DNA of 64,000 nucleotides from Chthoniobacteraceae bacterium (GTDB lineage: Bacteria > Verrucomicrobiota > Verrucomicrobiia > Chthoniobacterales > Chthoniobacteraceae). The position numbers were made by a program, and so were the translations under genes. The notes under the pieces were generated by a model, which made no database searches, was not told the DNA's origin, and was given only the letters and a program-made list of their open reading frames with translations. Location of the stretch: positions 1 through 64,000 of the forward strand of contig CANJNZ010000006.1 of the NCBI GenBank assembly GCA_947476045.1, read 5' to 3'. Of the stretch, positions 17,401-40,575 are shown piece by piece; within the stretch, counting starts at the first letter, position 1; every line of letters begins with the position of its first letter.

Positions 17401-17778
17401 GACGCCACCCGTGGAAGGGACTGCGCGCGTCGCATAGAGGGTCTTTGCGGGGTCGCCGCCAGCGCCGGAAATGCCGGAGGTGCCGGTAATACCCCAGACA
17501 ACGTGTCCATCCGTCCAAGAATTGCCGAATTGAGCTTTGAGGTCTGTTTCGGTAGCTGAGGTTCCGGCGACCACGTCGACGGTTCCGGAGATGGACCTGT
17601 AAGTAGAAGCCTGGCCGAGGTTGACCACGACGTTCTTGGTGGAGCCGGTGCCTGATGGTGCGCGGAAGCCGAGCAGCAAATCGCCAGTTGAATAGTTCGC
17701 CGCGTATGCAGCCTGTCCGACGAGGGTCACGGCGACTATTGCCGCGAGTGATTTAGTCAAAATGTTGTTGTTTTTCAT
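14437..17778 (-). CDS. Large exported protein: novel N-terminal domain, HYR-like region, NxxGxxAF-type repeats
   Basis: A 1113-residue secreted protein. Residues 1-27 are a signal peptide ending AYA. Residues 28-250 carry the same domain as the protein at 9780-12905 (LLLGFRA, VVNLGQAS, TGTSG, KTLYATR, SQGVTTSK, FQPGG, NNGISFASFNP). Residues 255-600 are beta-sandwich-like with recurring DAQSH/DLFNN/DAANN-T-T motifs, like HYR-type Ig domains. The last 500 residues have repeats of the form PAINDAGQVAFLA, VINESGKVAFLA and LALSDNGPIIYA, characteristic of the 'NxxGxxAF' tandem-repeat proteins. The end (NFNNNRQVIYSAKF...) is closely matched by a gene fragment at 43267-43440. It is probably a cell-surface or matrix protein. 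Confidence 0.8.
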   Translation of the reverse strand: MKNNNILTKSLAAIVAVTLVGQAAYAANYSTGDLLLGFRAPSGTGSTKNVVVNLGQASTYRSISGTVDVVAGTSATETDLKAQFGNSWTDGHVVWGITGTSGISGAGGDPAKTLYATRAVPSTGGVATGHPTAWTRQSPTSQGVTTSKLGSFATGYQTYTLSSNGGAIENKADVNSYGSFQPGGTPVGNNNGISFASFNPSTESTFDGTFSAVELFRMTPGSGAGQYVGTFTLNTDGTLSFTAPAKASKVSAQFTNTPSSNSVTVQFTLPAGVASGSLKLEFVDANGTVRNLQLAGASETAGAHTITFDPTNPTANTEIVSGSLPEGKYDVSVRFTDADGHVISSQVTKGQTIVDSAAPTVGTTRLAGKIIDVNATLPDLRGFLDISDASAVTTVQTPAIGTALTALDENYSVTFTCTDAQSHVTNVTGVTVKVRDISAPVLNVASVPATGYDSITVLPDQTSLVGVADFSTFGPVTQLPAPGTLLPPGPATLTFSCQDLFNNARTATKSITVGDKTPPVVNAAGVSTTGYSSTTPLGDLRSQLVITDFSNPVTTTQNPPVGYFPAVGQTLTFTSTDAANNTTVTNIPLTVTAGTLQTTLLISAAATTGDAVPGAGTTAGIAANSKFTSFGAPAINDAGQVAFLASWSSPAVAANGAQPAIAAKTGKGIFAGPANSPTLVAYVGGPCTITGAVIGTVFDPVINESGKVAFLATLINLGTTTATTTPVSTANDLVVLTNAFTGGALTIAAREASSPALSDFAIISVISNISLQGSNLLYTATLKTGTGAAVTAVNDKAAFMNSNGTLTKVIREGEDSLPGLAGLSPVASFTLLTPVTGSPAQTRGHAGNAVTLQAKLVDGSVSLLDSVAGTLTPFKKTGATVGGVSSIAAATFNSFGASVAADGADEVVNATLNPSGLFVTAANNIGIFKGQGSLLQPIARLGDSIGGGVMNAFGEPLVANGSVAYPGSFKIGTVANAGIFWKTATGSVSKLTSVVDEVPGAPNIANRFKAFTSLALSDNGPIIYAQLKTDAFGISATNDYGIWAVDSQGRLTKLVQEGDVVSGKTVVSLTFLNAVTGSNGVTRNFNNNRQVIYSAKFIDAGIPSTGIITQTIP

Positions 17779-20404: not shown

Positions 20405-23400
20405 CTACAAAGTGCCCGCCGAGCTTCCGCTGTCGTCGCCGCCGCCGTAGCCGAGGACTTCCACAACGATGATGGATGGAACCTCAGGTGGCGGCGCAGG
20501 ATGATTCTCTTCACGTTTCGGACCCGCGTCTGTCGTGCCTGCAGCACCTGACGTAGGTGCTGGTGGCGGAGGAGGAGCAGAAACGGGCGCCGCCGAGACA
20601 CTCGGTGCCGCCGGCGTGCCTGCGCTGCTGCCAGCGACTTGGATGTTGCTGGTGTTCAACACGGAATTTGCAGCGATGTTCAAGTTGCCAGACACACGGA
20701 TGCCGGCGTCGCCCGCGTCAATCGTTCCTGCGGGAGCAATAAGATCCACATCGCCGGGTTTGACGCCTGCAACAGTCGCCAGAACGCCAATACCGCCACC
20801 GGTGGCAAGACCGGCCAGATCGGTCTGGACATCGGCGCTCTGCGGATCGATCACGACGCGTGTCGGCGGGGCTGATTGCACGGTCTTCGATGCAGCGCCC
20901 GCGGCAATGTCGCCCTTGGATGACCAGATGATTTCGTTCCCGCCACGCAGAGTAAAAATACGTGATGTGCCCACGGTCACGCTCTGGTCCGTGAAGATGG
21001 AAATATTGCCTCCCGATTCAGTAAGAATACCCTGATCCTGCGCCTGTGCGCCCGTGGCATTGAAACCAACAACAAGCCCGCCACCGGGAGCGATAAGGCT
21101 GATGTCGCCACCGCTCTTCGTCTTGATTTCGCGCGAAGTGAGCGAGATGTCGCCCTTCCATTTAGTCTTCGTGGGGAAGAGTGCGTCAATGGCTGAGTAA
21201 CCCGAATCGTAGTTGCCCTTTGTGGAGAAGTCGCGCCCGGCATCGCGCAGCACACGATAGAATATATCCAGCGCGAGGCCTGCCTGTTTTTCCGAGGGCA
21301 GCTTTGTGAACACGTCAGTGGTTCCGGTGTTTTTCGTATCAATTTCGGCGAGGTAGCGATTGATCGTATCAGGCGTGAGCACCTGCTCGGTGAACGTGGT
21401 GAAATCAAGGGCGCTGTTGGCCAGGTCGGTCGGGCCCCCGATTCCCGCGGCGGCGATGATTCCAGCACCATCGAATGGCAGGAATGGATTGCGTGAATTT
21501 CCGATGCTGTAAAGGCCGAGATTAGTGTCGGCGGGCGCGCCCGGATTTCTGCCCACGCCGAGATCGAGATCGCGACCTGCGAGCACTTGAAGCATACCGG
21601 GACCGCTGATTTGCAGGTCCCCTGATTGTGCAGCGACTCCAAAGTTGAGCGCGTTGCCTTCCGTGCGTGCGGTAACAAGCAGCGGAGAATTTGGATTGAA
21701 GGCGACGATGTCGCGTCCGCTTGCAACTACGCTGATGTCGTCCTCGGCGATGTTTTGAATATACAGCCCGATGTCGGTGATGTCGTGACCTGCAAGAATG
21801 CGGGCTGACTTTGATGAAAACAGGGTAAGCCCTGATACGTCGCCGCCTGCGTAAAGGTGGACGGGATCGGTGTCACCGGAGTGGAGAACCCCCGGTGCGT
21901 GGAGAGCCTGTTTGTTCTGCACCGAGCCCTGCGCGCCCAGCGTTGATCCTGATTCGTTGTAAAGCTTATCCACGAATTTCAGGAACTGAATATCGGTGGT
22001 GTTCGCAAAGCGGCTTTCTACGCCAGCAATCGTCTGATAGCCATAGGGAGCACCAATTCCCGGCATGGATGCGGGGTTTGAATCGGAAAGATTGATTTGA
22101 GAAGGGCCCCACACTTTCACGTCCGAGCCATTGATGTTGTTAATGCCGTTGATTTGAAGTCCGTTAATCGATCCCGCGGCGGCGAGATCCACGGTGCCCC
22201 TAGGTGAAGCCGACAAAGTGAGGTCGCCGACGAGATTAATGTCGCCTGAAAACGCCGTGGTTCGCAGCGTGGGAGGTCTCAATGATGTAGCCGCAGCAAA
22301 TGGAGCCATCTTGTCTTCGACGGTGCGCAGCCATGGCTGGTAATAGGCTGCTGTCGGCGTTGCGGTGGACGTGCCCGAGGCCGAGAGCAAAAGCACGTTT
22401 TGCAACCATGCATCTAACAATGGCGTGGAAGAGCCTGCCTGACTGCCTGTGTTTGGCATCGTGGCACTGCTGCGGAAAGTCACATCTCCTGTAAGCGAGG
22501 CGACGCTCACAGAACTGTCCGCAGAGTAGGTGGAAAAATAAGTCTTATACCAGTAGGTGTTGCTGTAACCCTGCGGGAGCAGGAACGCATTCGCCATAGG
22601 ACCCAGTAGCAGGTCTCCACGCGCCTCCACGTCGAAGCTGCTCTTGCCCGCGAACAGCGTCGTGGGAAGCCATGTTTCAGCAGCATAGGGGGCCTCTCTT
22701 GCGATATTGGTCAGTGAGGGCGAGCGCGTAGCGTTAGTGTGGATGCTGAATCCTGCATCGAGTGTGCCGGTGCCGCGCTCGACGTAATACACACCGCCGT
22801 CAATATCGTGGCCAGCGCTTACGATGAGGTCGCCGCCGCCAAGTTCAACAAGTCCCGCGGCATTGGGCACCCCCTTCGGCATTCTTGCGTTGGTCGGAAT
22901 CACGGCATCCACGTTGCTCACATTGTTGCCGGCGATCATGGTCACATTACCGCCGCCGAGTGCGCCTACGCTTTGAAAGAAGTTGCTGAAGTTAACCCAC
23001 CATGTTGTGGATGCAACTTCGCCAAACTTGGAAACACCGAACTGGCCTGTCACCGGATCCACGTAGCCGCGGCGATAGAGCCAGTTTGACGGCAACTCCC
23101 GTTGCGAATCGGGCACCAGCAAATTGGCTGAATTGCGCGTGTAGTGTGCAATGTCGCCCTGGGCGGAAATCGTCACGTTGCCGCCTCCGAGTGTGTATTG
23201 CACGGCATAGGGCGAACGATCCTGAATGGCACCAAGCGCGCCAAGCGGCGAGCCCAGCAAATTGGTGGAGGGTGTATCAAATGTGCCGCCAAGTGTGGGT
23301 TCCGCCACCTGGGTGCCGGCGGTGTAGATGCTCGCGAAAACGTTCAGGAATTGCACGTCCCGCCCGGCTGCAACTTCAATGTCGCCGGTTCCTGTGCGAA

Positions 23401-26400
23401 TCACCTGATAACGCCCGGCAATCACCTTGCTGGCCAAAGCGTTGGGTCCCGGTGTGAACGAGGCATTTGCGCCGCCATTCACTCCAAGCAGTAGCGATCC
23501 CGAGTTATTGCCAAGATTTGCGAGGGGCGCCACCTGTCGGAAATCCGCCGCCCCGAAATCTGCGCCTGCCGCGAGACGATACGACCATGACTGCGTGCCC
23601 GCAGCGAGCAGTTGTGCCTCCCACAATGGCTTCACGCCGGGAATATTTGTGTCGATGGGCGGCGCCCCGAATCCGTCGCTGAGGCTTCCGTTGAAAACGA
23701 GATTCCCCGCCGCACGCAATGTCAGGATGCCCGGCTCGCTGCTCGTCGGACCGAAACGGAACGCGCCGAGTGTGGAGTTTGCCAGATCCCAATCGGCGCT
23801 CAATGTGAGGTTGCCAGTGCGATTGATAATTTCAGCACCGGGCCTGATGTGGAGCACGGACGAGAGGTCTGAGTTGTTTGCAAGCAGTTGTCCCTCAATC
23901 GTGGTGGCGTTGTTTCCAAAAGTGATGCCGCTCGACCTCACGTTGCCCTGCACAGTGCTCGATAGTGCTCCACCGCTCGATGTGAGGTCGAAAATTCTGT
24001 ATCCCTCCACGACGATGCTCGATGCGCCATTAATAGTGCCGTTGACTGGGGCCAATGCGAGGTTAGCCCCCCCTGAGGTTTGCGGTGCGCGTAAATGCAG
24101 CGTGCCCGTGGATTGCCCCAGCCCCGCGACTGCCGCAACCGTGAGATCAATCTTCGAGCCGGACTGGATGTCGAGAATGGCCGCGCTATTGATGTTCCCG
24201 TTGATTTGCGAGCCAGCTTCGAGCGAAACAGTTCCACCTTTGCCTGCGTTGTCAAAACTCTGCGCTGCGACCGAGAGCATCGCTGTCGGCGAGAGTGTGA
24301 CGCTTCCACCAGCGATAAGATTGATAACGCCACCTCGCTCGCCCGATGCATCCACATTACCGGTTACCGTGATGGAACCTGTGTCGGCGGAAATGTTGAA
24401 ACGATGGGCCTTTGCCGCACCGTCGAAGAGCACATCGCCGGAGCGCACGCGGAAACTGCGCGTGTCTGTAAACGAAGCGGCATCGAGAACGGAATTGAGC
24501 GAGACAAGACTCGGCGACTCACCGACATCAATCGAGAAAGAGCCGCCCCTAACTCCCTTGGCAAACATCGTGCCTGCGAGAGTAAAATCACCGTGCGGCG
24601 TGACGACAGAGACGCTGCCGGCATTTCCACCGCCCGCTTCCGCTGCGACTCGCAGAGTGCTGTCCGCCAGGAAGCTCACGGAGCCATTATCAGCGAGCAG
24701 ATTGATTTTTCCACCATCGGTGTATTTCACGAGGTCAAAAAATGTTTGCACCTTTCCACCGACATCAAGCCGCCCGCCGATGCTCACATCCCCGCTCGTG
24801 GCGTGAAGCGTCAGCACTCCGCTTGGCAGCATTATGTCACTATTCTCGATGATGCTTGTGCCCTTCAAAGTCAGGCTCGCACCAAGTCCCGCAGTCTTTG
24901 GCGTGGTCGCGCCGCCTGTTGGTGTTTCAAATGTTAGCGAGCCACCGGCAACGATGGACTGCGTTGCAGAGCGAGCCGCAGTGATGAACGGGGTGTTGGC
25001 GACAATGTCACGCTGCGCGGTAAGCCCGCCCACTCCGCTGATGACCATGCCGGATGAGGCGTCGAGTTCCAGCGTGGTGAACTGGTCCACTTTGAGCTGG
25101 TTTTCACCGAGACGAATGGAGCCGGCATGAAATGCGAGTTTTCCAGATGGAGCCACGATAGGGCCGGGCGCACTGCCGTTTGGTGAGTTATCGAGGAGGA
25201 TGTTGGATGCGAAAATATCCAGCGTGCCTCCTCCATTGTTGAAGCCGCGAATTTCGGCTGCATGCAAAGTCAAACTACCATCTGTGCTGAATCGTCCAGC
25301 GCCGTAGAAGTCGAGTGATGTGTAGCTGAGCAAGGAAAGCACTTTTGAGCCTTGGAGCCCCTTGAGTGTCTCGCCTGCGAGCACCAAGCCTGTTGTCGGC
25401 TGGAGAGTTCCCGGATTGTCGAACTGGATGCTGATTTGACCGCTGTTCAAAGCGATGGATGTGCCGGTGAGTGTCGCGCTCGGATCGAGCGATGTCGCGT
25501 AGGTGGAATCCAGCGTGATGCTGGCACCCGAGATATTCGCGCCTGCGCCAATGGTCATTTTCGGAACTGTCGAATTTCCCAGACCGCTTCTCACGATGCG
25601 CGCCGACGGATCGCTCGATACGCGCAACAGCGTTCCATCACCGCTGCCTGCCACTTTTGCATCACCCAGCAGCAGCGTGTCCGCACGACCTCCGAGTCGG
25701 CCAATTTGCTGAATCTCGGCGCCGGGGGCGAGCGTAAGATTATTTTTTGCAACGAGAATGATTTCTGGTCCGCTGAGCGGAGTGCCGGCGTTGTCCAGTG
25801 TCACGTTTTCGGATTTGACATTGATTGTCGTCCCGTCCGCGCCTTCCTTGCGGGTGCCCCCGATGAGCAGGCTCTCCGCGCCAAATTTACTGAGCTGCGC
25901 AGCATTCAAATTCAGCGTGCCTGCACCTCCGCCGCTTCCCGTTGAACTGATCACGATATCCACCGGGCTGCTGATATCCACCAACCCGCCACGTCCGTGT
26001 CCCATACCCTGGGCGGAGACGGAGCCCTGCAATACCATTGCCGTGCTTGCCTGGAAAACAAGGTGGCCCGCGTCAGTCGGCAGACGTGGAACCGTGGTCT
26101 CATTCTGTATCGCGCCAGTGCGCAGGAAATCATTGGCCTGAACCTGATCGTATTCCGAGCGGTTGCGGACAACTTCCGAGGGCGCGACTTCAAATCGTGC
26201 AACCAATGCCTGGACCGTGCGTTCGGTATTGAGGTCGTTGAAACGGTAGCCGGAAACGAGGCTTGAACCTTCAGCCAATGTAACGGTGCCGTAGGGAGTC
26301 CCGCTTTGCGGCGTGACGAGAAATGCGCCCGGCATCAGTGCATAGCGCGCAGGCAGCAGCGTGTAATCTCCCTCAGGCAATCCGTCGCTCGCACCGAGAT

Positions 26401-29400
26401 GCACTCGGTCGCCGATCTTCAGGCTGCTGTTCAAATAACCCGCATCCCCGCCCAGGTTTGTTGCGTTTGAGCTGGGGTTGAAAGGCGCGAACGGCGTGTA
26501 ATTGGAATCGTAATTTGGGATGACCGCAAAGCTTGTTGAGGACGCAAGAATGTCCTTGCTGCCGCCATTGCCGGCGACCCAGCGATAGGCATAGAGGTCG
26601 CCTCCACCCCGTAGATCAATTGAAGAACCCGGTTGTGTGGCGATTCTTGCCGCCGAGAGGTTCACGTTTTTTCCTGCAACGCCACCAGCGGTGATGTCCA
26701 GTCCAGCAGGGTCAATCCACGCTGTGCCGTTCAGTATGATACCATACGGGATGAGCAACTCACCACCGTCCTGCGGGCCATAGGCTGCCACGGATGTGAC
26801 GCTGCGCGAAGTGAGGGTGAGTTGCCTTGTCGTCGCCACGGTCATGCCGGAAACTGGATCGACAGGACCTGTGCCACTGCCATCCCACCCAAGATTAATC
26901 TGGCCGATCGGTGCACGCAGGATGCCATCCTGTTTTATGGTCGAACCATAAATGTTCAGACTGCCGCCTGCCGATAGCGGAAGCTGACGACTGCCTGACG
27001 CAATGAGGGTCACCGAGCCACCGTTGGTGGTGTCGCCTGTTTTGTAATCCGCAGCCGTAATCGTGAAACTCACGGCCGTGGGCGGGTAAATTTGTGCCGC
27101 ACGCATCACGATGTCACCCGCGACACTGAGTGCCCCATCGCCACGGATGTCACCGCCATCCGCAAAAAAGTTTGCCCTGCCTATGCCTTGTAACGAAAGA
27201 CTTCCGATATCGATGAGGGTTGCCTTCACCGTGAGGCTGCCCTTTCCGAAAGTTGGATCGATATAGAAGGGGCGCCCCTCAAACAGGAAGGGGCTTTGCC
27301 GGTCTTGTGGCAGTGCCGGCGGTAGGAAAGGAGTGCCGAGGGTGACGTAAGCTGCGCTGAGATTCACTGCGCTGTCTCCGTAGATAACACCGCCATCCGC
27401 CACGGCGAGTGTGCGCCGCGCATTTATCGAGACAGGCCCTGTGAATTGCACGGTTCCCTTAAGTGCCAGAGAGTCAAATCCTCCCCCGGCGAAGCGATCG
27501 ACCGCGAAATAACCAGTGCCGAAAATCGGGTCACCCTTGGCATCCCGCACTGCGTGACCAATTGCTGTCTGCCCCGCAGCATAAAAACTGACGGGAATGG
27601 TTGCGCCGCTTTGCTTGACCTGCATCGTCACTTCAAGAGGGCTGAGCAGGGTGCTCGTGCCCACTGGAGTAAACCGGCCTGACGAAATTACCAGACTTCC
27701 GCCAAGCGCCGTCGGGCCGCCCGCCGCGCCACGCAGTGTCGCATCCGTGAGAAGTTCCTGTGTCCCGCGCAACGTGATGGTGCCTGCGTCGCTATCAACC
27801 CGCGTGGGGACGAAGCGCGAGGCGTATAGCGACGAGTTTATTCCGCTGTTCACGGGTGTCTGAGACGAAGCCATGGACAGCCCGGTTTCCGGCGCCACGG
27901 CAGGAGCAAGGTCGAGTATCGCACTGGCGCCGGATACGTCGAGCACGGCACCTTTTTCCGCGACGATGTTTCCAGACACGCTGATGCTGCCGCCGGGAAG
28001 AACGGAGCCCGTTCGCGCCCCGAAAATATTCGGCGTATATACCGTCGTGCCCGCCGTGGAGAGGAGGCTTTGCGGCCCGAGATTTACCGTTGGTAGCGCA
28101 AACGGAGAAGGGGAAAGTGCCGGGAAATTTCTGCCGCCGGAAATTGAGATGGAGCCGCCGGGCGCGATGACAGAACCGAGCACAGCCGCAGTATCTCCGG
28201 AAATGTTCACACTGGCCTTTGGATCCGTTTGAATGGAGGAGCCTTTGCCCATCATGAAGTCGCCGCGCACGACCAAATCCAACGGGCTTCCCTTGAATGG
28301 ATCCCTCACACCGACTGCGTTGAATGCGAGGCTGACAGGCGTGCGGAGCGCCTGCGGCAGGACCATCGGAATGAGTTTGATCCCGCCACCCGTCGGAGCG
28401 TGGGCTTCAGCGATGTAATTTTGTGCAACGGGCTCTATCACAGTGCCGGGTGCTATCAACACTCCGGGAATATATTCATTGGGATCGGCTGTCGGCATTC
28501 CAAGGCCGCTGAGTGAGAAACTACCAAAGCCGCCCTGATTAAAGAAATCGGGAGTCAGTAGCAGGGTGTCCGGATTGTCCGTCCTGCCGCCGATCTGAAT
28601 CGCCGGCGCGAGGATCGAAAGCGAACCGCCTTTCGCGCCGGAAAATCCTTTCAGTGTGGAGCCGAGCTTTAGCGTGCCCCCTATAACGGATGCAATATTC
28701 GCATCCTGCCCTGCTTTGATGGTGATGCTGCCGCCATTGCCAAAAGTGCGTTTTCCGGTCGGGCTCAAAACAACGCCACCACTCGCATCCATCTCGCTGC
28801 CCGACGCCAAATCCGCGCTATATCCACTCACAGTGATGCTGCCGCCATCCACTACAAGAGGAAGAGTGAGCGCAGTCGGCGAGGTAATCCGATCATCCAC
28901 AATCAACCCCGCCGCGCTCAACGATGCCATCGCGCCGAGTGTGAAACGACCGCGGGCCTGGTCTGGCGATGGCGTTTTGGCCTCGCCGCCCGGAAGCGAA
29001 TTTAATTTTGAGAATGTGTTGGCTGAAACTTGAAAAGCCGAAAGGCTGATGCTGCCGCCGGGAACGGAAATATTTCCTTCAATGTCGACGTTCGCCCCTT
29101 TGAGCGAGACCGTTCCCTTCGCGAATGCGTTCATCATCACTCCGGCTGGCACTGAAATGTCGCCGTCGCTATTGTCCACGATGAGTGTTCCGAATCCATA
29201 CGCGCCGACCAGATCAGGTGAGAGAACGACGTTTTTCAATCGCTCCTGCTTCAGTGCCTGCGGTTCTCCGGCGTCGTTCAGCGAAAACGGACCGACTGGC
29301 GTCAGATTCGCGTTGCTTTGAAAAACAATATCAGGGGGGGTGGGTGAATAATAAGGCAGCGTTACAATTGATGGATCCTGCGCCTGAAATGTGAGGGAGA

Positions 29401-31828: not shown

Positions 31829-31892
31829 GTGATGGCTACGGCTACAGACGCCTGAAAATTGGCGGTTTCACGTTACGCTTTGCAGTCACGTG

Positions 31893-32597
31893 TTACGGTT
31901 TTGCGGCGGCGGTTTTGCTCCCGGCAGGTTTCCCATCAGCAGGGCGGTCATTTGGCGATGGTTTTTGTGTCGTTCCATCGAGCTTGATGCGTTGTGTAGC
32001 GAGGTCGCCGCCGAACTCATCCACCATGCTCTGCAAACGTGCGCGCGTGATGCCGACGAATGGCTCACGGGCAGTGAGTGCAGTGCCGAGACCGAACTTT
32101 TCGTAGCGACTGAGCACTTCATTGCTGATTGCGAACATCTTCGCGTTTTTCGAGCGATGATCCGCAACAGTGTCCTTGAGCACACGGTTTTCAGCGGCGA
32201 GCTTGGAACGCTCGGCTTCGGTTTTCTTTGCCAGTGTGTCCGCGTGTTTTCCGAAACTGTCCGCCTTCACGAGTAAGTCCTTCGTCGCGGAAATTTCCTT
32301 TTCCCGCGCAGCGATATCGGCGTTCAACTTCTCCGCTTGTTCCTTTGCGGCCTGCTTATCCCCATCCGTGGTTTTGACGAGTTTCGCGAACGCCTCTTCG
32401 CTGGTCTTCAGCTTCGCTTCGAGTTCTGTCTTTTCGTTCTGCAATGTCACCTGCGCAGTCTCCGCAGCGTTGAGTCGGAGCGTGAGGGACTTGAGCTGCT
32501 CGCGCATCCGCGCCTCGTTGGGAGACGGGCTTTGCTGTGCGTAAATGCCAGTAGCGCCGAAGAAGAGGACGCTGGTCAAAATGGTGATGATTTTCAT
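31893..32597 (-). CDS. Exported coiled-coil protein of the secretion operon
   Basis: A 234-residue periplasmic protein. I start at the ATG at 32597 because it begins a signal peptide (MKIITILTSVLFFGATGIYAQQ) and lies only 2 bases beyond the porin stop codon; the frame extends upstream within the porin gene without sense. Residues 35-165 are almost entirely heptad-like (Leu/Ala with Lys/Glu/Gln) and predict a long coiled coil. A conserved-looking block YEKFGLGTALTAREPFVGITRARLQ follows, then a Pro/Lys/Ala-rich tail. I do not know the family. Position between the porin and the adhesin suggests a periplasmic chaperone, spacer or tether for the secretion route, which is inference. Confidence 0.75.
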   Translation of the reverse strand: MKIITILTSVLFFGATGIYAQQSPSPNEARMREQLKSLTLRLNAAETAQVTLQNEKTELEAKLKTSEEAFAKLVKTTDGDKQAAKEQAEKLNADIAAREKEISATKDLLVKADSFGKHADTLAKKTEAERSKLAAENRVLKDTVADHRSKNAKMFAISNEVLSRYEKFGLGTALTAREPFVGITRARLQSMVDEFGGDLATQRIKLDGTTQKPSPNDRPADGKPAGSKTAAAKP

Positions 32598-32599
32598 GT

Positions 32600-34603
32600 T
32601 TAGAATTTCCCGGTGAAGTCCACGTAAAGCGTGTCGTTGCTGAATGGCGGGCCTGCGATTTCCGTCGCTGTCACCCAGCGCACACCGAACGCGGTGCGCG
32701 GTGAAACTGCCCAGGTTCCCCAAAGTCCGTAGCCCTTGAGATTGGTTCCGCCGCCGCCGAAATCGGAGTCGTTGAAGCCATCCACCACGGCATCGGACTC
32801 GATGTATTTGTAATAAACGCCTGCCTGCCAGTCACCGCGCTTTTGAAGCGCCGCAGCGCCTGCGCGAAGACCGAGCATCCATGCCGTGTCACCGCCTGCG
32901 TAGCTGCCAGGAGTGCCTTTCGCGCTAATCGGCGCGCGATTGTTGATGCCGAGCGCGTTGAGGCGATCCCGATCAAAGCCAAGGTTTTTAATGTATTCTC
33001 CGGTGAGCGAAATCTGGCATGGCTCAAAGCCATTGTAATCGAGACGTGCCGTGAACGCGAGCGGTTGGAATTTCGTCGCAAGACCGAAGTATTGAAACTG
33101 GTTCGATGTGCCGAAGTTATTGCTCGCATTCGGGATGATGCGGCGTAGCGGCATGTAGGTGTTTCCTTTCTGGGCGAAGGACGGACGCGTGTTGTCGGTG
33201 TCGCCGGCATCGCTACTCGTGAGCGGTGTGTAGGGCGTGGACTGCTCGCCTTCTGCGCCGTCGAATTGATAATACGCAGCCGCTGTTTTGAGCGTAAGAT
33301 GCTTTGTCAGCTTCCAATCAGTGCCGAGCTGTGCGCCGTAAAGATACTTGTCGGTGCTGTCGAATTTCGCGGGCTGGTTGGATGAGAAATTGAAGTCTGT
33401 ATTGAAAATCGGGAACACACCGAGCGTTGCAAACGGAGTGACGCCCTTCGCGATGCGATAGCGGCCTTGGATTGCCAGTCCATCGAAACCGAGATCGTCG
33501 TCGTATATGACGTCCGTGGCGAAAAACGGATTGTCACCCCGGCCTCCAGTGATTGCGATACGGCGGTCGGGATCGGCTCCCGCTTCGTATTTGAGGAAGG
33601 CGCGATCCAGCCAGATGGCGTATTTACTGAAATTTCCACCCGATGCGCCGAGCGATTGGTTTGGCGAAACTGGCGAGCTGTCCTGGCCGGTGCCAATGCG
33701 CACGCCTGCGGTGAAGCCGTCGCCCATGTCCACTTCCGCGCCGAGCCTCAAGCGGATGCGGTAACGCTGGCGATCTTGATCCACGTTGAGCTGGGGCGAA
33801 AAAACGGTGCCGCTCACGTCGAAAGGAGCGCCGGTATTGATCGCCTGGAAATTCGGGAATGCACCCGTGTTGTCGTTACCAACCGGGAAATAACTTCCCT
33901 CGTAGCGGAGACGGATGTCGCCCTTGACGCGGAATTTGGAAACCCAGTCCGGCAATTGATACGGAGCGTTCCAGTGCTCGGATTTCGCAGCCGCCATGAC
34001 TTCCTGTCGCAAGTCGTCGCGGATTTGTTTTTTCACCATGTCGGGGATAAATGGAATGCGCAGCGCATCCTCCGGCGATGGGTCGGCTGGCAAAACCTTG
34101 TCCATCTTTGCCTGCTCCACGACAGCCTGCGCTGCGGTGAGCGCATCGGACTGTGCCTGAGTGCGTGCGATGGCGGTGTCCTGTTCCGCTTCGCGAATCA
34201 ATTCGTCGGCTTCCTCCTTGGTGATGTGACCCTTTTTCACCATAAGCTTGAGCAAATTTACGGCAAAGGTTTGCGAAGGGCCGTTGGCTTGATTTCCGAT
34301 CAGATCAGGCTGCGGAGCTGCGGCGGGTGGCGGCACAGATTGTTGCTCCGTTGGTTTTGCAGCGGCATCGGCTGGTGCCGCGCCGTCGGCAGGCTTTGCT
34401 TCCGGCGCTGACGTCTTCCCAACTGGCGCATCGGTGGAAACTGCGGCTGGCTCGCCAGTTTTCGGAGCCGGATCATTCTGCGCGTAAGTTGCTCCGACAG
34501 GGAGTGCTGGCTCGACGGGTTTGCCTGCGTTTGCAGTCGCGCAAATGGATGACGCCAGTGCGACGATGAGATGCGGACGAAGTGAGTGTTTTGATTGAGA
34601 CAT
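32600..34603 (-). CDS. Putative outer-membrane porin of the secretion operon
   Basis: A 667-residue outer-membrane beta-barrel of the 'putative porin' (Porin_5-like) type. Residues 1-26 form a signal peptide ending ANA. Residues 30-105 are Pro/Ala-rich. Residues 110-200 hold an alpha-helical periplasmic part with LLKLMVKKGHITKEEADELI, a motif common at the N terminus of these porins. From about residue 215 the chain has alternating amphipathic strands (FRVKGDIRLRYEGSYF, RYRIRLRLGAEV, TPFATLGVFPIF) and it ends with DTLYVDFTGKF, a C-terminal aromatic typical of barrel insertion. Start and signal peptide agree. It follows tonB by 23 bases and could be the TonB client, although no TonB box or plug domain is evident. 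Confidence 0.85.
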   Translation of the reverse strand: MSQSKHSLRPHLIVALASSICATANAGKPVEPALPVGATYAQNDPAPKTGEPAAVSTDAPVGKTSAPEAKPADGAAPADAAAKPTEQQSVPPPAAAPQPDLIGNQANGPSQTFAVNLLKLMVKKGHITKEEADELIREAEQDTAIARTQAQSDALTAAQAVVEQAKMDKVLPADPSPEDALRIPFIPDMVKKQIRDDLRQEVMAAAKSEHWNAPYQLPDWVSKFRVKGDIRLRYEGSYFPVGNDNTGAFPNFQAINTGAPFDVSGTVFSPQLNVDQDRQRYRIRLRLGAEVDMGDGFTAGVRIGTGQDSSPVSPNQSLGASGGNFSKYAIWLDRAFLKYEAGADPDRRIAITGGRGDNPFFATDVIYDDDLGFDGLAIQGRYRIAKGVTPFATLGVFPIFNTDFNFSSNQPAKFDSTDKYLYGAQLGTDWKLTKHLTLKTAAAYYQFDGAEGEQSTPYTPLTSSDAGDTDNTRPSFAQKGNTYMPLRRIIPNASNNFGTSNQFQYFGLATKFQPLAFTARLDYNGFEPCQISLTGEYIKNLGFDRDRLNALGINNRAPISAKGTPGSYAGGDTAWMLGLRAGAAALQKRGDWQAGVYYKYIESDAVVDGFNDSDFGGGGTNLKGYGLWGTWAVSPRTAFGVRWVTATEIAGPPFSNDTLYVDFTGKF

Positions 34604-34626
34604 TCGAGTTCGGTAAAATTGTGAGA

Positions 34627-35379
34627 TTAGTTCGGACGGCGTGCGCTGAGACGCATTACGATGGGCATCGGCATATCGCTCGGTGGCGGCTGGCTGAGTT
34701 GCAACCCGTTGAGAACTTCGTCGCGAATTGCAGCGTCGAGCGCGCTGTCGCCAGTCGAGGAACCGAGCGTAGCGCGTGTCACTCGTCCCGTGGAATCAGC
34801 CCAAATTCGCACTTCGATCTTCATGCTCGCCATGCGTGTGCGTGGGTTGTTGCGCAGTGCGTCTGTGATCCGCGCCTGCACCTGTGCAGCGTAGCCACCG
34901 AACTTCGATTTATTGTTCGTGACTGGACGCTTGAAAAAAGTGTTTCGATTTCCAGCAGCGATCTGAATGCCACCGCTAGCCGGTCCTTTCACAGCCGTCG
35001 CAACAGCAGGCTCTGGTGGAGCCTCATCTTCTTTCTCCTGCTCCTCCTTCACCATCTCCTCCTTCATTTGTGTGGGTGGTGGTGGTGGCGGTGGTGGTGG
35101 TGGCGGCGGAGGCGGAAGAACCGAAACCATCGTGACGTTCTCCTTTTTGCCACCGCCCGTCTCGGCCTTGGAGAAGACTTTCACTGCAAAAATGATCCCT
35201 GTGATCGTGAGTCCGCTGACGATGAGCGGAGCGAGCCATTTCCGAAAGCCGGTCGCTTTCTCATCCTCATCACCCCAGTCGTCATGGGCGTCCGGAGCAG
35301 GCACCGCCTTCGGCGCATGTTGCGCAACGGGCTTTTCGAGTGTCGCGATATTGCCTTCGTTATCGTGGGTTGAGTTCAT
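34627..35379 (-). CDS. TonB-family energy transducer
   Basis: A 250-residue TonB-like protein. It has a 48-residue cytoplasmic N terminus, one membrane helix (about residues 49-69), a run of about 14 prolines (89-102) and an acidic/basic Glu-Lys stretch that would span the periplasm. The C-terminal domain (about 160-250) reads GGYAAQVQARITDALRNN, then IEVRIWADSTGRVTRATLGSSTGD, then ALDAAIRDEVLNG, the order found in TonB C-terminal domains. The long cytoplasmic N-terminal extension is unusual against E. coli TonB, which has a very short one. It lies directly after two exbD genes in the secretion operon and should carry energy from that complex to an outer-membrane partner. Confidence 0.9.
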   Translation of the reverse strand: MNSTHDNEGNIATLEKPVAQHAPKAVPAPDAHDDWGDEDEKATGFRKWLAPLIVSGLTITGIIFAVKVFSKAETGGGKKENVTMVSVLPPPPPPPPPPPPPPTQMKEEMVKEEQEKEDEAPPEPAVATAVKGPASGGIQIAAGNRNTFFKRPVTNNKSKFGGYAAQVQARITDALRNNPRTRMASMKIEVRIWADSTGRVTRATLGSSTGDSALDAAIRDEVLNGLQLSQPPPSDMPMPIVMRLSARRPN

Positions 35380-35392
35380 GGGAATAGATGTG

Positions 35393-35803
35393 TCAGCGGC
35401 GGGCTCCTGATGTCGCGAGGCCGACTTGTTTGATTCCGAGTTTCACAACGACGCCTAGTGCGTCCGTGACTTTTTCATACTGCGTAGCGCTGCTGCCTTT
35501 GATGATTACGGGCACGTCCGGATTCTCAGCCTTCGCCTGCGTGAGTCGCATTTCCAGCGAAGCGAGTGTGACCGGCTCCTTGTCAAAATACATCGCCCCC
35601 GCGTCATCCACGCTGATGACTTTGAGTTTGCTCTTCTCATCCGTTTTTTTCTGCGGCGCATTGCTGCCACGAGGGATGCCGGCTTTGATTCCCTGAATCG
35701 TCGCCGTGGTCATCAGGATGAAAATGACCAGCAGCACGTAGGCGAGATCGAGCATCGGTGTGATGTTGATGTCGTCGTAAGGTTTGTCGTCTTGAACTTG
35801 CAT
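35393..35803 (-). CDS. ExbD/TolR-family protein, second copy
   Basis: A 136-residue biopolymer-transport protein with one membrane helix and a periplasmic domain. The membrane aspartate that carries protons in ExbD is Asp19 in ITPMLDLAYVLL. The first 31 residues are identical to those of the neighbouring upstream copy, and the DNA at the two starts is nearly identical too, whereas the periplasmic parts have diverged (VISVDDAGAMYFDKEPVTL here). This points to tandem duplication followed by separation of the soluble domain, or to repeated conversion of the membrane part. Only 8 bases separate the two genes. Confidence 0.93.
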   Translation of the reverse strand: MQVQDDKPYDDINITPMLDLAYVLLVIFILMTTATIQGIKAGIPRGSNAPQKKTDEKSKLKVISVDDAGAMYFDKEPVTLASLEMRLTQAKAENPDVPVIIKGSSATQYEKVTDALGVVVKLGIKQVGLATSGARR

Positions 35804-35811
35804 CGTCGTGG

Positions 35812-36213
35812 TTATTTCGAGGCTTTGGTTGCGATTCCGACCTGCGTGATGCCGACCTGGCCGATGACGTTGAGCACGTCCATGATCGCCTGATACTGCG
35901 CTACGCGGTCGCCTTTAAGAATGATGGGCACGTTGGGATACTCCGCCTTGATTTGCGCGAGCCGTGATTCGAGCTCGCCGAGGGTGACGGGCGTTGTATC
36001 GAGGAAAACTTGCCCTGCACCATTGATGGTGATCCCCTTCGCCTTTTTCTCAGCAAGACTCTTGGTGGCCTCGCTGCCCGCAGGCAAATCAGCTTTCAAA
36101 CCCTGCACCGCCGCTGTGCACATGAGAATGAAGATGACGAGCAGCACGTAGGCGAGATCCAACATCGGAGTGATGTTGATGTCGTCGTAAGGCTTGTCGT
36201 CTTGAACTTGCAT
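35812..36213 (-). CDS. ExbD/TolR-family protein, first copy
   Basis: A 133-residue ExbD-type protein with the same N terminus as its downstream neighbour and the conserved membrane Asp19. The periplasmic domain reads GITINGAGQVFLDTTPVTL and then YPNVPIILKGDRVAQYQ, as expected of the ExbD fold. It follows the ExbB fusion gene by 20 bases. With that protein and TonB it should make a proton-driven motor in the inner membrane. Two different ExbD chains could form a mixed dimer in the ExbB pore, as reported for some systems, but that is inference. Confidence 0.93.
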   Translation of the reverse strand: MQVQDDKPYDDINITPMLDLAYVLLVIFILMCTAAVQGLKADLPAGSEATKSLAEKKAKGITINGAGQVFLDTTPVTLGELESRLAQIKAEYPNVPIILKGDRVAQYQAIMDVLNVIGQVGITQVGIATKASK

Positions 36214-36233
36214 GGCGTGGTGTTCCTTTCTGT

Positions 36234-38069
36234 TTACTCGCCCTTGTCCTTGTAAAATTCGGCCATCTTCGTGACGAACTCATCAATGAAGATGTGCATG
36301 TCGTCCTTCGCGTCCTTCACGCGCGAGAGAATGTAGTTGTAGCCAAATAGCGAAGGAATAGCGACGGCGAGACCGGCGACGGTCGCGAGCAACGCAGCAG
36401 CGATACCGGGCGCGATGGCGTTCACGTTCACTTCGCCGGCGGCGGCCACGGCGGCGAAGGTAATCATCACACCGACGACTGTTCCGAGCAGACCGAGGAA
36501 CGGGCCGCCGGAAATGCAGATGGTGAGCAGCACGATCAGCTTGTTGATTTTCTGCGTCTCGCGAACGAGCCCGCCGTCGAGCGCAGCGCGGATTGCCTGA
36601 ATGCTGCGGCCTGCGAGACCGCGACGCACTCCCACTTCGCGATCCACGGCCATACGGTGGCGGATTTCTTCCACGCCGATGTGGTAGATGCGATACACCG
36701 ACGAACGGCGCAGGCTTTTTGCGTTCTCTTTGGTCACGCGCCCGCCGAGCGATTTGGAAGTCTCAACGTCATCGCTATCGAGAACGGTGAGGTCGGATGC
36801 AACATGGCGCCACTCCCGCATGAAAATCTCATTTCCCTTCGCAATTCCGTTCAAATAACGCGTTTTGCTGACCATCACATACCAGCTCATCACCGCCATG
36901 ATCGCGAGGATGATGATGACCGCCCAACCGTCAAAAGTGAGGTTGGCGATGATGACGGCGAACGTGCCGGTCGTCAGCCAGCTCAGCCAATTGGTTGGCT
37001 TCTCATCGGCGCCAAGCAAGATGGTCTTCGGGCCTTTCTCGCCGCCTTGCGAAGCTGCTGCGAGTCCGATCCAGCCAGCGGGGCGTGCGACTTTGTGGAT
37101 TTGCAGTTCGTCCAGTTCACCAGTGAATGGTGTTGCTCCAGAAGTTTTATCGCCGCCGAGGATGAAATTGCCGTTGATGGCGGGAAGGCCCGCCCCGACA
37201 GCGTTGGCGACTTCGCCATTTACGAAAAGCGTGGTCTTTGTGCCATCGCTCATCACTGCGATGTGTGCCCAGGAACCTGGCTGCAAGGGCTGCGGTGCAG
37301 CGGCGCGCTGGCCGGAAATTTCGACATAGGGCGCGCCTTTATCCACGCCGACTACGAATGAGTTTTTGTCGTCGCGGCGACTGAGGATGACGCCATTTGG
37401 CTGCGTTGCCTTCGCCCACACGGTGATCGTCGTTGGCGAATTACCCGTCCACACCAGCGAGCCGGATGCGGCAATCGGCACGTTGATTTTCCCGTTGAAA
37501 GCGACGCCGCTGCCGATTTGCGCACCGTCGAGTTTTCCGCCTGCGGATTCTGTGGTGTTGTTGCTCTTCGTGGAGTCACCGGCGTTCTGTCCGCTCTCAT
37601 TGAAATGGAATACGAGCACGGTGTCCGCGTCGAAGCTGCCCTTTGCATCATCAGCCTTCGCCGCCTTCGCATCGTTCGAGCCAAAATACATCCAGAACGT
37701 CGTTTTTGCGTTTGGTTTTACGTCGGGCAGCTTCACCCACACGTAGGCTTCGCCCATCAACGCATCAATTTTTTCGACGTGATGCGTGAGCAGCGTCTTG
37801 CCGTCCTCGGCAACAAAACGGAGGTCGCTCAAATCTTCCTTTGCCAGCGGATAGCCATCGCCGAAAAGTCGCACGAGCACCGTGCTCGCACCGATGGGCT
37901 CGGCGACATTTCCGCCAGCCGCCGTGGTGTCCACGGTGACTTTCTTGCGCATCGTCCACGCGCCATCCCACCAGTCACCGGCATGGGCGGCTGCACTGAG
38001 CAAAAGCCCGGCGACAGCGACGGCCATCAGTTTCATCCAGTTTGTTTTCGTTGTGCGTGCGATTTCCAT
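36234..38069 (-). CDS. DUF2341-LamG-ExbB fusion: proton channel with large periplasmic lectin-like domain
   Basis: A 611-residue protein that joins an ExbB/TolQ/MotA channel to an exported domain. Residues 1-30 are a signal peptide ending AHA. Residues 32-135 match DUF2341 (WWDGAWTMRKKVTVD, then VWVKLPDV, FWMYFGS). Residues 145-340 are a LamG/concanavalin-like domain (ITVWAKA, GSWAHIAVMSDGTKTTLFVNGE, GELDELQIHKVARP). Three membrane segments follow at about 382-402, 512-543 and 553-575, with GGPFLGLLGTVVGVM and APGIAAALLATVAGLAVAIP as the ExbB/TolQ hallmark. The usual ExbB has no such periplasmic N-terminal part. It starts 30 bases after the TpsB stop codon, tying the motor to this secretion route. 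Confidence 0.92.
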   Translation of the reverse strand: MEIARTTKTNWMKLMAVAVAGLLLSAAAHAGDWWDGAWTMRKKVTVDTTAAGGNVAEPIGASTVLVRLFGDGYPLAKEDLSDLRFVAEDGKTLLTHHVEKIDALMGEAYVWVKLPDVKPNAKTTFWMYFGSNDAKAAKADDAKGSFDADTVLVFHFNESGQNAGDSTKSNNTTESAGGKLDGAQIGSGVAFNGKINVPIAASGSLVWTGNSPTTITVWAKATQPNGVILSRRDDKNSFVVGVDKGAPYVEISGQRAAAPQPLQPGSWAHIAVMSDGTKTTLFVNGEVANAVGAGLPAINGNFILGGDKTSGATPFTGELDELQIHKVARPAGWIGLAAASQGGEKGPKTILLGADEKPTNWLSWLTTGTFAVIIANLTFDGWAVIIILAIMAVMSWYVMVSKTRYLNGIAKGNEIFMREWRHVASDLTVLDSDDVETSKSLGGRVTKENAKSLRRSSVYRIYHIGVEEIRHRMAVDREVGVRRGLAGRSIQAIRAALDGGLVRETQKINKLIVLLTICISGGPFLGLLGTVVGVMITFAAVAAAGEVNVNAIAPGIAAALLATVAGLAVAIPSLFGYNYILSRVKDAKDDMHIFIDEFVTKMAEFYKDKGE

Positions 38070-38099
38070 GTGAGTCGTTCGTAAAAAAAGTGATGTGGT

Positions 38100-39812
38100 T
38101 TAAAAGTCCGCCCACAGGCGGAAATTGACGCGCGTGTCGTGCGCTTGCGTGGTGCCTATCGTGGTGAGCGGCAGGGCCAGTTCGACGATGCCGTGGAAGT
38201 GATCGAAGAACTCCACTTCGCTGCCGATGCCGAAGCTCGCTAAGCGGTAGGAGGAATCCTGCTCCGGCAAAGTGTCGTGCAGCGTGAGCGTCCCGGCGTC
38301 TGCAAAGGCGTAGAATCGCCATTCGTTGCCCGTGCTTTCTTCGACCTCCTCCTCCACCCCTTGGAGGTTCTTCTTCTTCACCATACGCTTTGTTTTCAAA
38401 AGCGACGGAGTGCGGAGTTCAAATGTGCCGAAAATTGCATTGTCGCCGAGCGCCTCTGCTTCCTTGTAGCCGCGAGCCGTGCCCATGCCGCCGCCGCCAA
38501 ATTGCTCGCTGTTCACCAGCGGCTGATCCGAGGCCTGCCCCTGCAATTTCAAGAACATTTCCCAGCCGCGCCCAAGCTCCTGCGTGTGCGAAATGTCGCC
38601 ACGGAAATAGATGAAATTCCCATCCGCTCCGAAGCGATTGCGATCCAGCTCCGACGCTTCGCTGCCCGTGCCTCGGATGCCGAGCGTGACTCCGGCGCTG
38701 GCGGTCGTTGCGCCTGTATCCACGCGTTTCGTTTTTCCGGGATTTGCCGCGTCCGCCACGTCGCGACTGTGCAGCCATGTTCCATCCCATGTGGCGCTGA
38801 CCGGGTAGTAAGTGATGGGCGTTTTATCCGTCGTGAGGCCGATGGTGACTGCCTGATCAAAGCGCTTCCAATCCAGACCGAGGCTGAACGATTGGTAAAA
38901 GCCATCCTGCGACGGCAAAGTGAACATCCCGCGAAGACCGAAAATTTCCCCGCGCCCAGCAGATGCCACACTGCCAAGCGTCGAAACATTACTGTCCTGC
39001 TTCGTGCCCGTGAGCATGAGGCTGAACGAATCAATGTCGCGGAAACGCCAGAGGTAATATGCGGAGAACACCTTCACCTCGCTCGTGTCCTGCGGCGACA
39101 TCTGGTAGCTCGCACCAATCGTGTGGCCGACCTGCCAGAGGTTTGCGTAACTGAATGATCCACTGAGACGGAGGTCGGTCGTGTTGGCGCTCGCGCGGTT
39201 GTTTAGTTCGACGTTGCCATGAAATGGGGATTTGTCCTTCACGAGCAACTCCACATCGTAAAGCCCGGGTTCGTCTTCGCGTGCTACAAGCTTCGGCTGC
39301 ACACTGCGGTCGGGGTGCTTATTCAATGCCGCGATATCCCGCTGCACGTCGTTGAAATTGATCACTTTTCCCTCCGCTAAAGAGAGCGCCTTGGCCTTGA
39401 TTTCACTCGGCAGGAAATATCGTGCGCCCTTCACGCGAAGGCTCGCCACTTTTCCATCGATGACCTCCAGCAGCACGACTCCACCATTACCGCTCTGCTC
39501 CGCCACCATCTGGACACGCGTTCCGCTGAAACCTTTTCCATCATACACCTTTTGAAGCGCATTAGCCGCGTTCTGAATGTCAGCCACCGTCCGGCCCGGC
39601 CCTAGAAATGGATAGACCGCCTCTTCAATCTCAATACGAGGGATATGCTTCGCCCCGAGAACCCGAAACTCGCGGATGAACATCGTCTTCTCCTGCTCTT
39701 CTGCACTAAGCTGCGTAGTGCAGAGCAGCGCTGAAAGAGCCGACCACAGAGCCACGCGCATCCCCCTGCGGTTTGCAGGCGTAGAGATTTGAAAGCGAGC
39801 GCTCAGGAACAT
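38100..39812 (-). CDS. TpsB/FhaC-family outer-membrane transporter
   Basis: A 570-residue two-partner secretion transporter. I use the ATG at 39812, which starts an n-region followed by a hydrophobic signal ending QLSA near residue 40; an alternative ATG at 39761 gives a more compact signal peptide. POTRA domains follow: FIREFRVLGAKHI...VYPFLGPGRTVADIQNAANALQKVYDGKGF (about 47-105), then the second with VASLRVKGARYF and GKVINFNDVQRDIAALN. From about residue 200 the chain is a beta-barrel (NVELNNRASANTTDLRLSGSFSYANLW is the typical first barrel region), with the conserved GRGEIFGLRG and a C-terminal strand ending LWADF. It is the expected exporter for the giant adhesin encoded at the far end of the same operon. 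Confidence 0.93.
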   Translation of the reverse strand: MFLSARFQISTPANRRGMRVALWSALSALLCTTQLSAEEQEKTMFIREFRVLGAKHIPRIEIEEAVYPFLGPGRTVADIQNAANALQKVYDGKGFSGTRVQMVAEQSGNGGVVLLEVIDGKVASLRVKGARYFLPSEIKAKALSLAEGKVINFNDVQRDIAALNKHPDRSVQPKLVAREDEPGLYDVELLVKDKSPFHGNVELNNRASANTTDLRLSGSFSYANLWQVGHTIGASYQMSPQDTSEVKVFSAYYLWRFRDIDSFSLMLTGTKQDSNVSTLGSVASAGRGEIFGLRGMFTLPSQDGFYQSFSLGLDWKRFDQAVTIGLTTDKTPITYYPVSATWDGTWLHSRDVADAANPGKTKRVDTGATTASAGVTLGIRGTGSEASELDRNRFGADGNFIYFRGDISHTQELGRGWEMFLKLQGQASDQPLVNSEQFGGGGMGTARGYKEAEALGDNAIFGTFELRTPSLLKTKRMVKKKNLQGVEEEVEESTGNEWRFYAFADAGTLTLHDTLPEQDSSYRLASFGIGSEVEFFDHFHGIVELALPLTTIGTTQAHDTRVNFRLWADF

Positions 39813-39885
39813 AGTGCGACAACTTAAAAGCGCTTTCGTGACAGTCGTATGGCAGAGCGGAAACGATCCAGTGAAAGTGAGCGCT

Positions 39886-40575
39886 CTACGCATCCAAACG
39901 GTAGCCGAACCCACGCACCGTCTGAATATGCTCCGCAGCAGAGCCGAGTTTATCGCGCAGGCGGCGCAAATGCGTGTCCACAGTGCGAATCTCGATCTCT
40001 GTCTCCGCCCCCCACACAATCCCTACCAATTCATCCCGAGAGAAAACGCGCCCCGGCTGACGAAACAGCGCGGCGAGCAACTTGAATTCAGCAGCCGTCA
40101 AATCCACGCGCTTCCCCTTCACCTTCACCTCATGCCCATCGAGGTCGAGAATGATATCGCCCACACTTGAATAGCGGACGACCGGCGCAGGTCCCGTGCG
40201 ACGGGACAGGATGGATTTCACACGCAGCGTCAGCTCGCGCGGACTGAAAGGCTTCGTCACGTAATCGTCCGCTCCAAGTTCGAGGCTCACAATGCGATCC
40301 ACTTCATCCTTCCGCGCCGTAAGCATGATAATCGGGATATGCGCAGTGCGCGGTTCACTTTTCAGCGCACGCAAGACATCGGTGCCACTCATGTGCGGCA
40401 TCATCAAATCCAGCACCATCAACGCCGGCTCATTCTTGCGCGCCTTTTCCAGCGCCTCCCGCCCATCGCTGGCGTGCGTCACTTGATAACCCGCCGCCGT
40501 CAGATTCTGCGAAACCAGCTTCACGACATCCTCCTCATCGTCCGCCACCAAAATCTGCTGAATCAAAGCGCTCAT
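39886..40575 (-). CDS. OmpR/PhoB-family response regulator heading the secretion operon
   Basis: A 229-residue DNA-binding regulator. The receiver domain covers residues 6-120, with the acidic pair DDEED (12-16), the phosphorylation site Asp56 in LMVLDLMMP, and the Lys in VTKPFSP. The winged-helix output domain covers about 130-228 (VDLTAAEFKLLAALFRQPGRVFSRDELV, then RTVDTHLRRLRDKLG and the C-terminal hairpin VRGFGYRLDA). I start at MSALIQQ because the family begins there. No histidine kinase is encoded near. It lies 73 bases upstream of the TpsB gene on the same strand and may control the operon; its target sites are unknown. Confidence 0.92.
   Translation of the reverse strand: MSALIQQILVADDEEDVVKLVSQNLTAAGYQVTHASDGREALEKARKNEPALMVLDLMMPHMSGTDVLRALKSEPRTAHIPIIMLTARKDEVDRIVSLELGADDYVTKPFSPRELTLRVKSILSRRTGPAPVVRYSSVGDIILDLDGHEVKVKGKRVDLTAAEFKLLAALFRQPGRVFSRDELVGIVWGAETEIEIRTVDTHLRRLRDKLGSAAEHIQTVRGFGYRLDA

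Follow-up and report, generated by a model that had tools for sequence, protein, structure and literature searches.

Positions 20405-40575 of a 64,000-nucleotide stretch from a Chthoniobacteraceae bacterium (contig CANJNZ010000006.1; the whole stretch is hereafter the window) hold nine minus-strand genes, identified from the open reading frame (ORF) list and a Pfam search of the window. In order they encode a response regulator, the transporter TpsB, an ExbB fusion, two ExbDs, TonB, a Porin_5 protein, a coiled-coil protein and the exoprotein TpsA, and thus place a two-partner secretion (TPS) system beside a complete Ton/Tol-type motor. In a sample of the phylum, this type of motor is tied to the class of TpsA that carries DUF3739. 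With moderate confidence, we read the block as Ton-coupled TPS, in which TonB is inferred to bind the periplasmic C-terminal tail of TpsA and to control completion, anchoring or release of the fibre. A wider reading is offered more tentatively. Related TpsA classes would have taken on two different ExbB-ExbD-TonB motors, and each motor would hold a TonB-box-like tail, with the proton-motive force setting the completion, tension or release of a fibre of ~1,300-4,600 residues and no TonB-dependent receptor taking part.

The phylum sample was one fixed set of 387 genomes, searched four times (for the ExbB fusion, DUF3739, Porin_5 and the TPS domain); below, G denotes a genome and L a fetched locus or record. 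The ExbB-fusion profile matched 12 of the 387 genomes, 11 of them full-length at 645 bits or above and the twelfth, G215, clipped by a contig end. DUF3739 reached at least 100 bits in those same 12 genomes and only 26 bits in a thirteenth, G295 (Fisher p 5e-23 for the association of motor and DUF3739, uncorrected for kinship), and the strong DUF3739 class was never seen without a window-type motor in this sample. Full-length Porin_5 matches of at least 580 bits fell in the identical 12 genomes, the next score down being 127 bits. TPS domains above the cut-off were more widespread, occurring in 54 genomes including all 12 with the ExbB fusion; among the 42 without a window-type motor, G295 has a second motor type, for which the other 41 were not searched. 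The full order TpsB-ExbB-ExbD-TonB-porin-coiled-coil lay on a single contig in 9 of the 12 motor genomes, and the remaining three (G313, G369 and G215) have partial cassettes that run to contig ends. As controls we fetched 20 TPS loci and set one, L109, aside as having a cassette-type TpsA. TpsB was present in 16 of the 19 controls, and none had an ExbB, ExbD or TonB hidden Markov model (HMM) match in the fetched stretch, several of which were clipped by contig ends.

The initial annotation mentioned DUF2341-ExbB proteins beside haemagglutinin-like genes in some proteobacteria and supposed that the association might be wider. Both points held up, as the neighbourhood analysis found a conserved block in the 12 phylum genomes and in 11 plasmid records. 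The eight named relatives of the ExbB fusion are metagenome bins that carry the labels Spartobacteria, Chthoniobacteraceae, Verrucomicrobiota or Prosthecobacter, from which we take the phylum to be Verrucomicrobiota. Outside that group, where our counts cover plasmid records only, relatives over at least 80% of the fusion were found in 11 of 72,556 records, from Alpha-, Beta- and Gammaproteobacteria. By our own HMMs, 10 of these records have the full set of TpsB, ExbB, ExbD, TonB, Porin_5 and coiled-coil genes in one cluster. The exception, L015 (Methylomagnum), has ExbB-ExbD-TonB-coiled-coil with a DUF3739-type TpsA ~17 kb off. Because the genes are clustered in 10 of 11 plasmid records and keep their full order in 9 of 12 phylum genomes, the clustering of the cassette genes is not due to chance. 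Sixteen plasmid records hold a DUF3739-type TpsA C-terminus, and every one of the 11 motor records is among them. Local variations were seen as well: tpsA sits between tpsB and exbB in L014 (Aquabacterium), and in a Klebsiella pneumoniae plasmid record the cassette tpsB is split over two frames and a peptidylprolyl isomerase gene is annotated short (L018:3707-5247).

TpsA of the window (3807 residues; 20405-31828, minus strand) has an N-terminal TPS domain (PF05860, 65.6 bits against a cut-off of 33.5) and a C-terminal DUF3739. Near its end the tail pattern places a TonB-box-like peptide, IVVEVLGYG (residues 3787-3795; 20444-20470, minus strand). The cassette TpsAs (group 1) share this layout: DUF3739 is followed by a variable, often Ala-rich linker and then by the peptide PS.I.VEVLGYGG, 12-55 residues from the end. 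A loose form of the pattern matched 17 of 18 source tails and 12 of 14 held-out tails, not all of which are independent, since some were taken from closely related genomes or from one record. One held-out miss, L114, is a wrongly fused frame and the other, L116, is a near match. The expected background inside proteins was 0.004-0.012 per 150 residues, and the motif was absent from all 15 control TpsAs with a visible C-end. In our judgement, this peptide and that of the second TpsA class described below resemble edge strands that could pair with the TonB C-terminal domain. TonB boxes bind TonB by strand pairing, and the soluble protein colicin M carries one, ETLTV (PMC11658791); according to the same review, local structure in the TonB box matters more than individual side chains.

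The second architecture was found in G295, whose operon reads TpsB-TpsA-ExbB-ExbD-TonB-ExbD, with a TpsA frame of 1,515 residues and without a nearby match to DUF2341, the porin or the coiled-coil protein. In the order to which G295 belongs, 31 of 146 genomes matched DUF3739 at E<=0.001; every one of these matches is weak, and 23 exceed the cut-off. Of 39 loci fetched from this order, 38 have a TpsA by HMM (group 2). On the TpsA strand, these 38 loci hold TpsB in 34 cases, ExbB and ExbD in 26, TonB in 24 and Porin_5 in 3 (a fourth locus, L126, has Porin_5 on the opposite strand). ExbB and ExbD were present on either strand in 29 loci, and neither DUF2341-LamG nor the coiled-coil gene occurred in any of the 38. 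Group-2 tails consist of an acidic and then lysine-rich linker followed by GRVTVILP, 0-14 residues from the end. The corresponding pattern matched 37 of the 38 TpsAs, and in the locus of the 38th, L126, another frame ends in GRVTVLLPE. It was found nowhere in 50,318 body residues, nor in any of 181 frames of more than 390 residues in control loci. The TpsA of G295, which is outside the 38 counted, ends in VSRVTVLLP and fits the pattern.

In a whole-genome search, 30 of the 31 genomes with a DUF3739-like TpsA had a group-2 ExbB of at least 376 bits; the one without it, G420, is fragmented. In several of the 31, the motor lies 10-15 kb from TpsA or on a separate contig. An ExbB tree separated the window type from the group-2 type by a 100/100 branch, with group 2 forming a 96/88 clade on the side of the other ExbBs, which means that related TpsA classes go with two separate lineages of motor. 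We had expected each group-2 motor to sit in a TPS locus, but this did not hold: 15 genomes with such a motor had no DUF3739 match, and a TpsA tail was found at only one of their 15 loci (L170), several of these stretches being short. Variant ExbBs were also found nested within the cassette ExbB clade (L073 from G178, L075 from G251, L071 from G307, L077 from G316 and L078 from G268). They have a different N-terminus and no TPS genes nearby. In G178 and G251 they lie ~8 kb from 1,200-residue ORFs that carry a Plug domain, which would fit redeployment of the motor. A 1,028-residue frame with a DUF2341-LamG match (L080:8105-9052, on contig C82 of G000) comes from a genome with no ExbB match.

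A search of the window's genome, which is 96.8% complete and might therefore have a missed receptor, gave no match to Plug or TonB_dep_Rec at E<=0.001; 12 other genomes tested had 1-15 matches to each. The client of the cassette TonB is most likely not a TonB-dependent receptor. The initial annotation had listed energised secretion, energised release, and control of the exoprotein or of the porin. The undetected receptor and the porin-poor second architecture narrow this list by favouring TpsA/TpsB as the client, short of proof.

Under the Ton-coupled reading, phosphate starvation would switch the block on. TpsA would cross the inner membrane via Sec, its TPS domain would engage TpsB, and the fibre would be threaded outward while the C-terminal tail remained periplasmic. 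There the strand-like peptide could pair with the TonB C-terminal domain in TonB-box fashion, and proton-driven ExbB-ExbD would apply force through TonB to the tail and the adjoining DUF3739 segment. That force would determine the fate of the fibre, be it completion, retention at the surface or release, with the porin and coiled-coil protein serving as an envelope scaffold or partner pore. Since TonB should pull inward, control or anchoring at the end of export is favoured over the powering of bulk translocation. The direction of the force, DUF3739 as a stopper and the porin and coiled-coil protein as scaffold are likewise inferred.

Several observations weigh against this reading. The likeness of the tails to a TonB box was judged by eye, and some tails deviate (LTVELLSLG in Aquabacterium L014 and FTVRVLGNG in L116). 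Eleven ExbD matches in the window's genome show that the cassette is not its only Ton/Tol-type motor. Motor and TpsA also occur apart. Five of the 16 plasmid records with a DUF3739-type TpsA have no motor on the same record (the rest of these genomes was not searched), and 15 of 45 genomes with a group-2 ExbB have no PF12545 (DUF3739) match. In three of the 31 genomes with a DUF3739-like TpsA (G394, G489 and G426) the group-2 ExbB is sited without a TpsA nearby, and G426 has only a marginal DUF3739 match and no TpsA by HMM (L155). Among the loci of those 15 genomes, three group-2 motors (L165, L166 and L176) lack TPS genes and have Porin_5 nearby (on the other strand in L176). Porin_5 is bound to the window-type motor as tightly as TpsA is, in 12 of 12 genomes. 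Mirror-tree correlations, uncorrected for species kinship, peaked at 0.92-0.94 among TpsB, porin and coiled-coil protein and fell to 0.46-0.80 for TonB; as a pointer to the partner of TonB the method was rejected, as it did not single out TpsA. From the literature, type V secretion can run without energy when reconstituted in vitro (reviewed in PMC5422565), and an insertion in the tonB homologue PA0695 of Pseudomonas aeruginosa PAO1 left VreI-induced virulence in zebrafish unchanged, a readout other than secretion (PMC2729926).

The first gene of the block encodes a response regulator (39886-40575, minus strand, ATG at 40575) with Pfam Response_reg and Trans_reg_C domains. Its annotation as OmpR-type is right as to family, and can be refined to PhoB-like: the best NCBIfam match is TIGR02154 PhoB, at 247.7 bits, below the cut-off of 296.2. 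Regulators beside the cassettes of G013 and L009 also match PhoB best (239.4 and 204.7 bits), and phoU lies beside the G013 cassette. A similar regulator was found in 7 of 35 stretches compared, and in one of these it is remote both in sequence and in position, so most cassettes are without one of their own. A Pho-box-like direct repeat (39838-39855, minus strand) lies inside the 73-base gap before tpsB and scores 13 of 14 against a degenerate consensus. The strict consensus had given a weak signal (mean 9.28 in 25 tpsB regions versus 8.65); under the degenerate one, adopted after that result had been seen, 20 non-redundant tpsB upstream regions scored above those of 444 other genes (p 7.7e-6). 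Scores were not raised upstream of tpsA, the porin gene or exbB. We regard the predicted Pho-box signal before tpsB as suggestive. This lead, the PhoB-like regulator and the published PhoB control of the P. aeruginosa locus jointly suggest a phosphate-starvation system across two phyla. In L015 (17806-22293), two annotated alkaline phosphatase genes, one of them PhoX, lie a few kb beyond the motor block, which adds a further connection to phosphate.

Four other explanations were considered, and some of them may be true together with Ton-coupled secretion. The client of TonB could be TpsB (38100-39812, minus strand), a FhaC/ShlB-type outer-membrane transporter whose POTRA domain (PF08479, POTRA_2) and ShlB-type barrel (PF03865) both score above the cut-off. 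The motor would then gate or unplug the transporter, energy replacing its usual self-opening. In the window TpsB, inspection by eye puts ~5 residues between POTRA1 and the apparent signal peptide, seemingly too few for a plug helix and linker of the FhaC type. Such a layout would suit a system in which TonB handles the gate or the tail; TpsB also accompanies TpsA and the motor in both architectures. By the same inspection, several other cassette TpsBs are short before POTRA1, but others have ~20-50 low-complexity residues there, and no TonB-box-like segment peculiar to cassette TpsBs was seen. A TonB box at the TpsB N-terminus was rejected because the conserved strand there is the start of POTRA1, which we take to be generic. 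On balance we consider a TpsB client quite unlikely. Uptake through the Porin_5 protein (32600-34603, minus strand; 668 bits), or through a complex with it, is unlikely too, if less so. Here the TpsA fibre would gather substrate, perhaps in phosphorus scavenging, as HxuA frees haem for a TonB-dependent receptor. Phosphate control would suit such a role, as would the restriction of full-length Porin_5 to the 12 motor genomes of the 387; the three TPS-less group-2 motors near Porin_5 are the strongest hint of a motor-porin link. However, the AlphaFold model of the porin (low confidence, mean pLDDT 51) has 16 strands and an N-terminal part that is disordered and helical; it has no plug, in contrast to TonB-dependent receptors. 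Porin_5 is also scarce in the second architecture. A conserved N-terminal segment that follows a linker in the porin, [S/P].NVTINLI..LVK.G.LT, is modelled as a helix, again at low confidence, and appears to be a weaker TonB-box candidate than the TpsA tail. The best Foldseek match of the porin model was the attachment porin OmpM1 of Veillonella (8byt, E 1e-14); no peptidoglycan-binding domain was seen in the cassette porin. Sequence searches of the PDB with the porin profile and with the TonB alignment gave no match.

The tail might instead be read as a signal, with TonB and VreA-like proteins, which join STN and TonB-like parts, reporting the completion of export and feeding back on expression. 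We think this very unlikely. A VreA-like protein with STN and a TonB-like C-terminal segment is encoded beside sigma/FecR-type genes at L011:13019-13750 and L013:915-1622 (STN below the cut-off in L013), a gene annotated as TonB C-terminal takes that place beside a lone TpsA at L112:3009-3755, and the signalling domain of FpvA pairs with a TonB-box strand (PMC11658791). Against this, no sigma, FecR or STN family turned up among the window ORFs scanned (not every ORF was), and VreA is reported to be dispensable for sigma activation in P. aeruginosa (PMC7035377). The three VreA-like proteins are in any case possible sensors of TpsA tails. Finally, the genes might share an operon merely as members of a phosphate-starvation response, with no physical coupling. 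Phosphate control, documented in P. aeruginosa and hinted at in the window, would account for this, but the TPS link is kept though the motor lineage differs, and both motor-linked TpsA classes have conserved tail peptides. Mere co-regulation seems to us improbable.

The gene association had been described before: the PA0690-PA0699 block of P. aeruginosa (the PUMA3/Pdt locus) has been in print since 2009, and its TPS pair is called functional (PMC2729926, PMC4971064, PMC7035377). A single promoter transcribes phdA, pdtB, exbB2D2, tonB4 and PA0696-PA0701, under control of PhoB and a sigma factor (PMC4971064). By gene order and published annotation, that locus (pdtA, phdA, pdtB, exbB2, exbD2, tonB4, PA0696-PA0699) shares with ours the order TpsB-ExbB-ExbD-TonB-porin-PA0697, and the window block has this order with a DUF3739-type TpsA (PdtA itself was not compared). 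In the published descriptions, PUMA3/Pdt differs in having the vreAIR sigma/anti-sigma trio, YbjN and PpiC genes, tpsA upstream and a single exbD, whereas the window block has its own PhoB-like regulator and two exbDs. YbjN and PpiC are not among its nine genes, and VreAIR-type genes were not seen among the neighbours scanned, which did not include every ORF. The initial annotation was correct that the mechanism seemed undescribed, in that the open-licence literature searched gave no account of the motor's function in PUMA3/Pdt-type cassettes; exbB2-exbD2-tonB4 was still called an uncharacterised putative TonB system in 2020 (PMC7035377), and our reading suggests a possible function for it. 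What is new here is the link of motor, DUF3739 and Porin_5 in 12 of 387 genomes, the genome with no detected TonB-dependent receptor, the second architecture, the conserved tails, and the PhoB-like regulator with its Pho-box-like site.

Among other known systems, type Vb secretion by FHA/FhaC has in common with the window system a TPS domain, POTRA and a ShlB-type barrel; the window system differs in its linked Ton motor, DUF3739, conserved C-terminal peptide and TpsB without plug-helix room. According to the literature TPS draws on no source of energy, and how it moves very large proteins under those conditions is an acknowledged puzzle (PMC5422565). In Myxococcus, secretion of PopC through Oar requires TonB-ExbB-ExbD (PMC6434023), but Oar is a 22-strand TonB-dependent transporter with a plug (PMC11658791), and none is encoded in the cassette or detected in the window's genome. 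HxuCBA of Haemophilus influenzae is, like the present block, a TPS operon with a TonB-linked function, but its three genes include one for a TonB-dependent transporter and not its own motor (PMC5422565). The pairing of TPS with a private Ton motor recurs in two phyla, and the pathway may be mechanically powered or controlled. A Ton-motor-tied TpsA class in a genome that looks receptor-less makes the action of TonB on an exported TPS protein directly testable.

The remaining genes of the block, all on the minus strand, encode the motor and the coiled-coil protein. The ExbB fusion (36234-38069; Pfam and alignment) is an ExbB/TolQ proton-channel subunit with N-terminal DUF2341 and laminin-G/concanavalin-like (LamG) domains. 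It is followed by ExbD 1 (35812-36213) and ExbD 2 (35393-35803), both identified by Pfam ExbD and both containing the segment ITPMLDLAYVLL, whose Asp we take to be the membrane aspartate. TonB (34627-35379) has an apparent membrane anchor, a proline-rich stalk and a Pfam TonB_2 C-terminal domain, and MotA_ExbB, ExbD and the TonB C-terminal domain all score above Pfam cut-offs. The coiled-coil protein (31893-32597), kept across cassettes, has an apparent signal peptide and a conserved C-terminal region, and AlphaFold models residues 26-167 as a single helix (pLDDT mostly 86-96). From regulator to tpsA, the intergenic gaps are 73, 30, 20, 8, 13, 23, 2 and 64 bases, so that the nine minus-strand genes, their families and the 2-73-base spacing were as first annotated. 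From this spacing the genes are probably co-transcribed.

Secreted-looking proteins that we term 'TGSTAFR' adjoin several cassettes (window 13212-14354; L061:2466-3974, L063:3430-4746 and L059:834-2213). The relatives are 36-41% identical to the window protein and have no Pfam match. Two large secreted-looking proteins are encoded downstream of the block, one with DUF7453 (14437-17778) and one with Calx-beta (9780-12905), and both resemble, in general style, secreted proteins encoded next to other cassettes.

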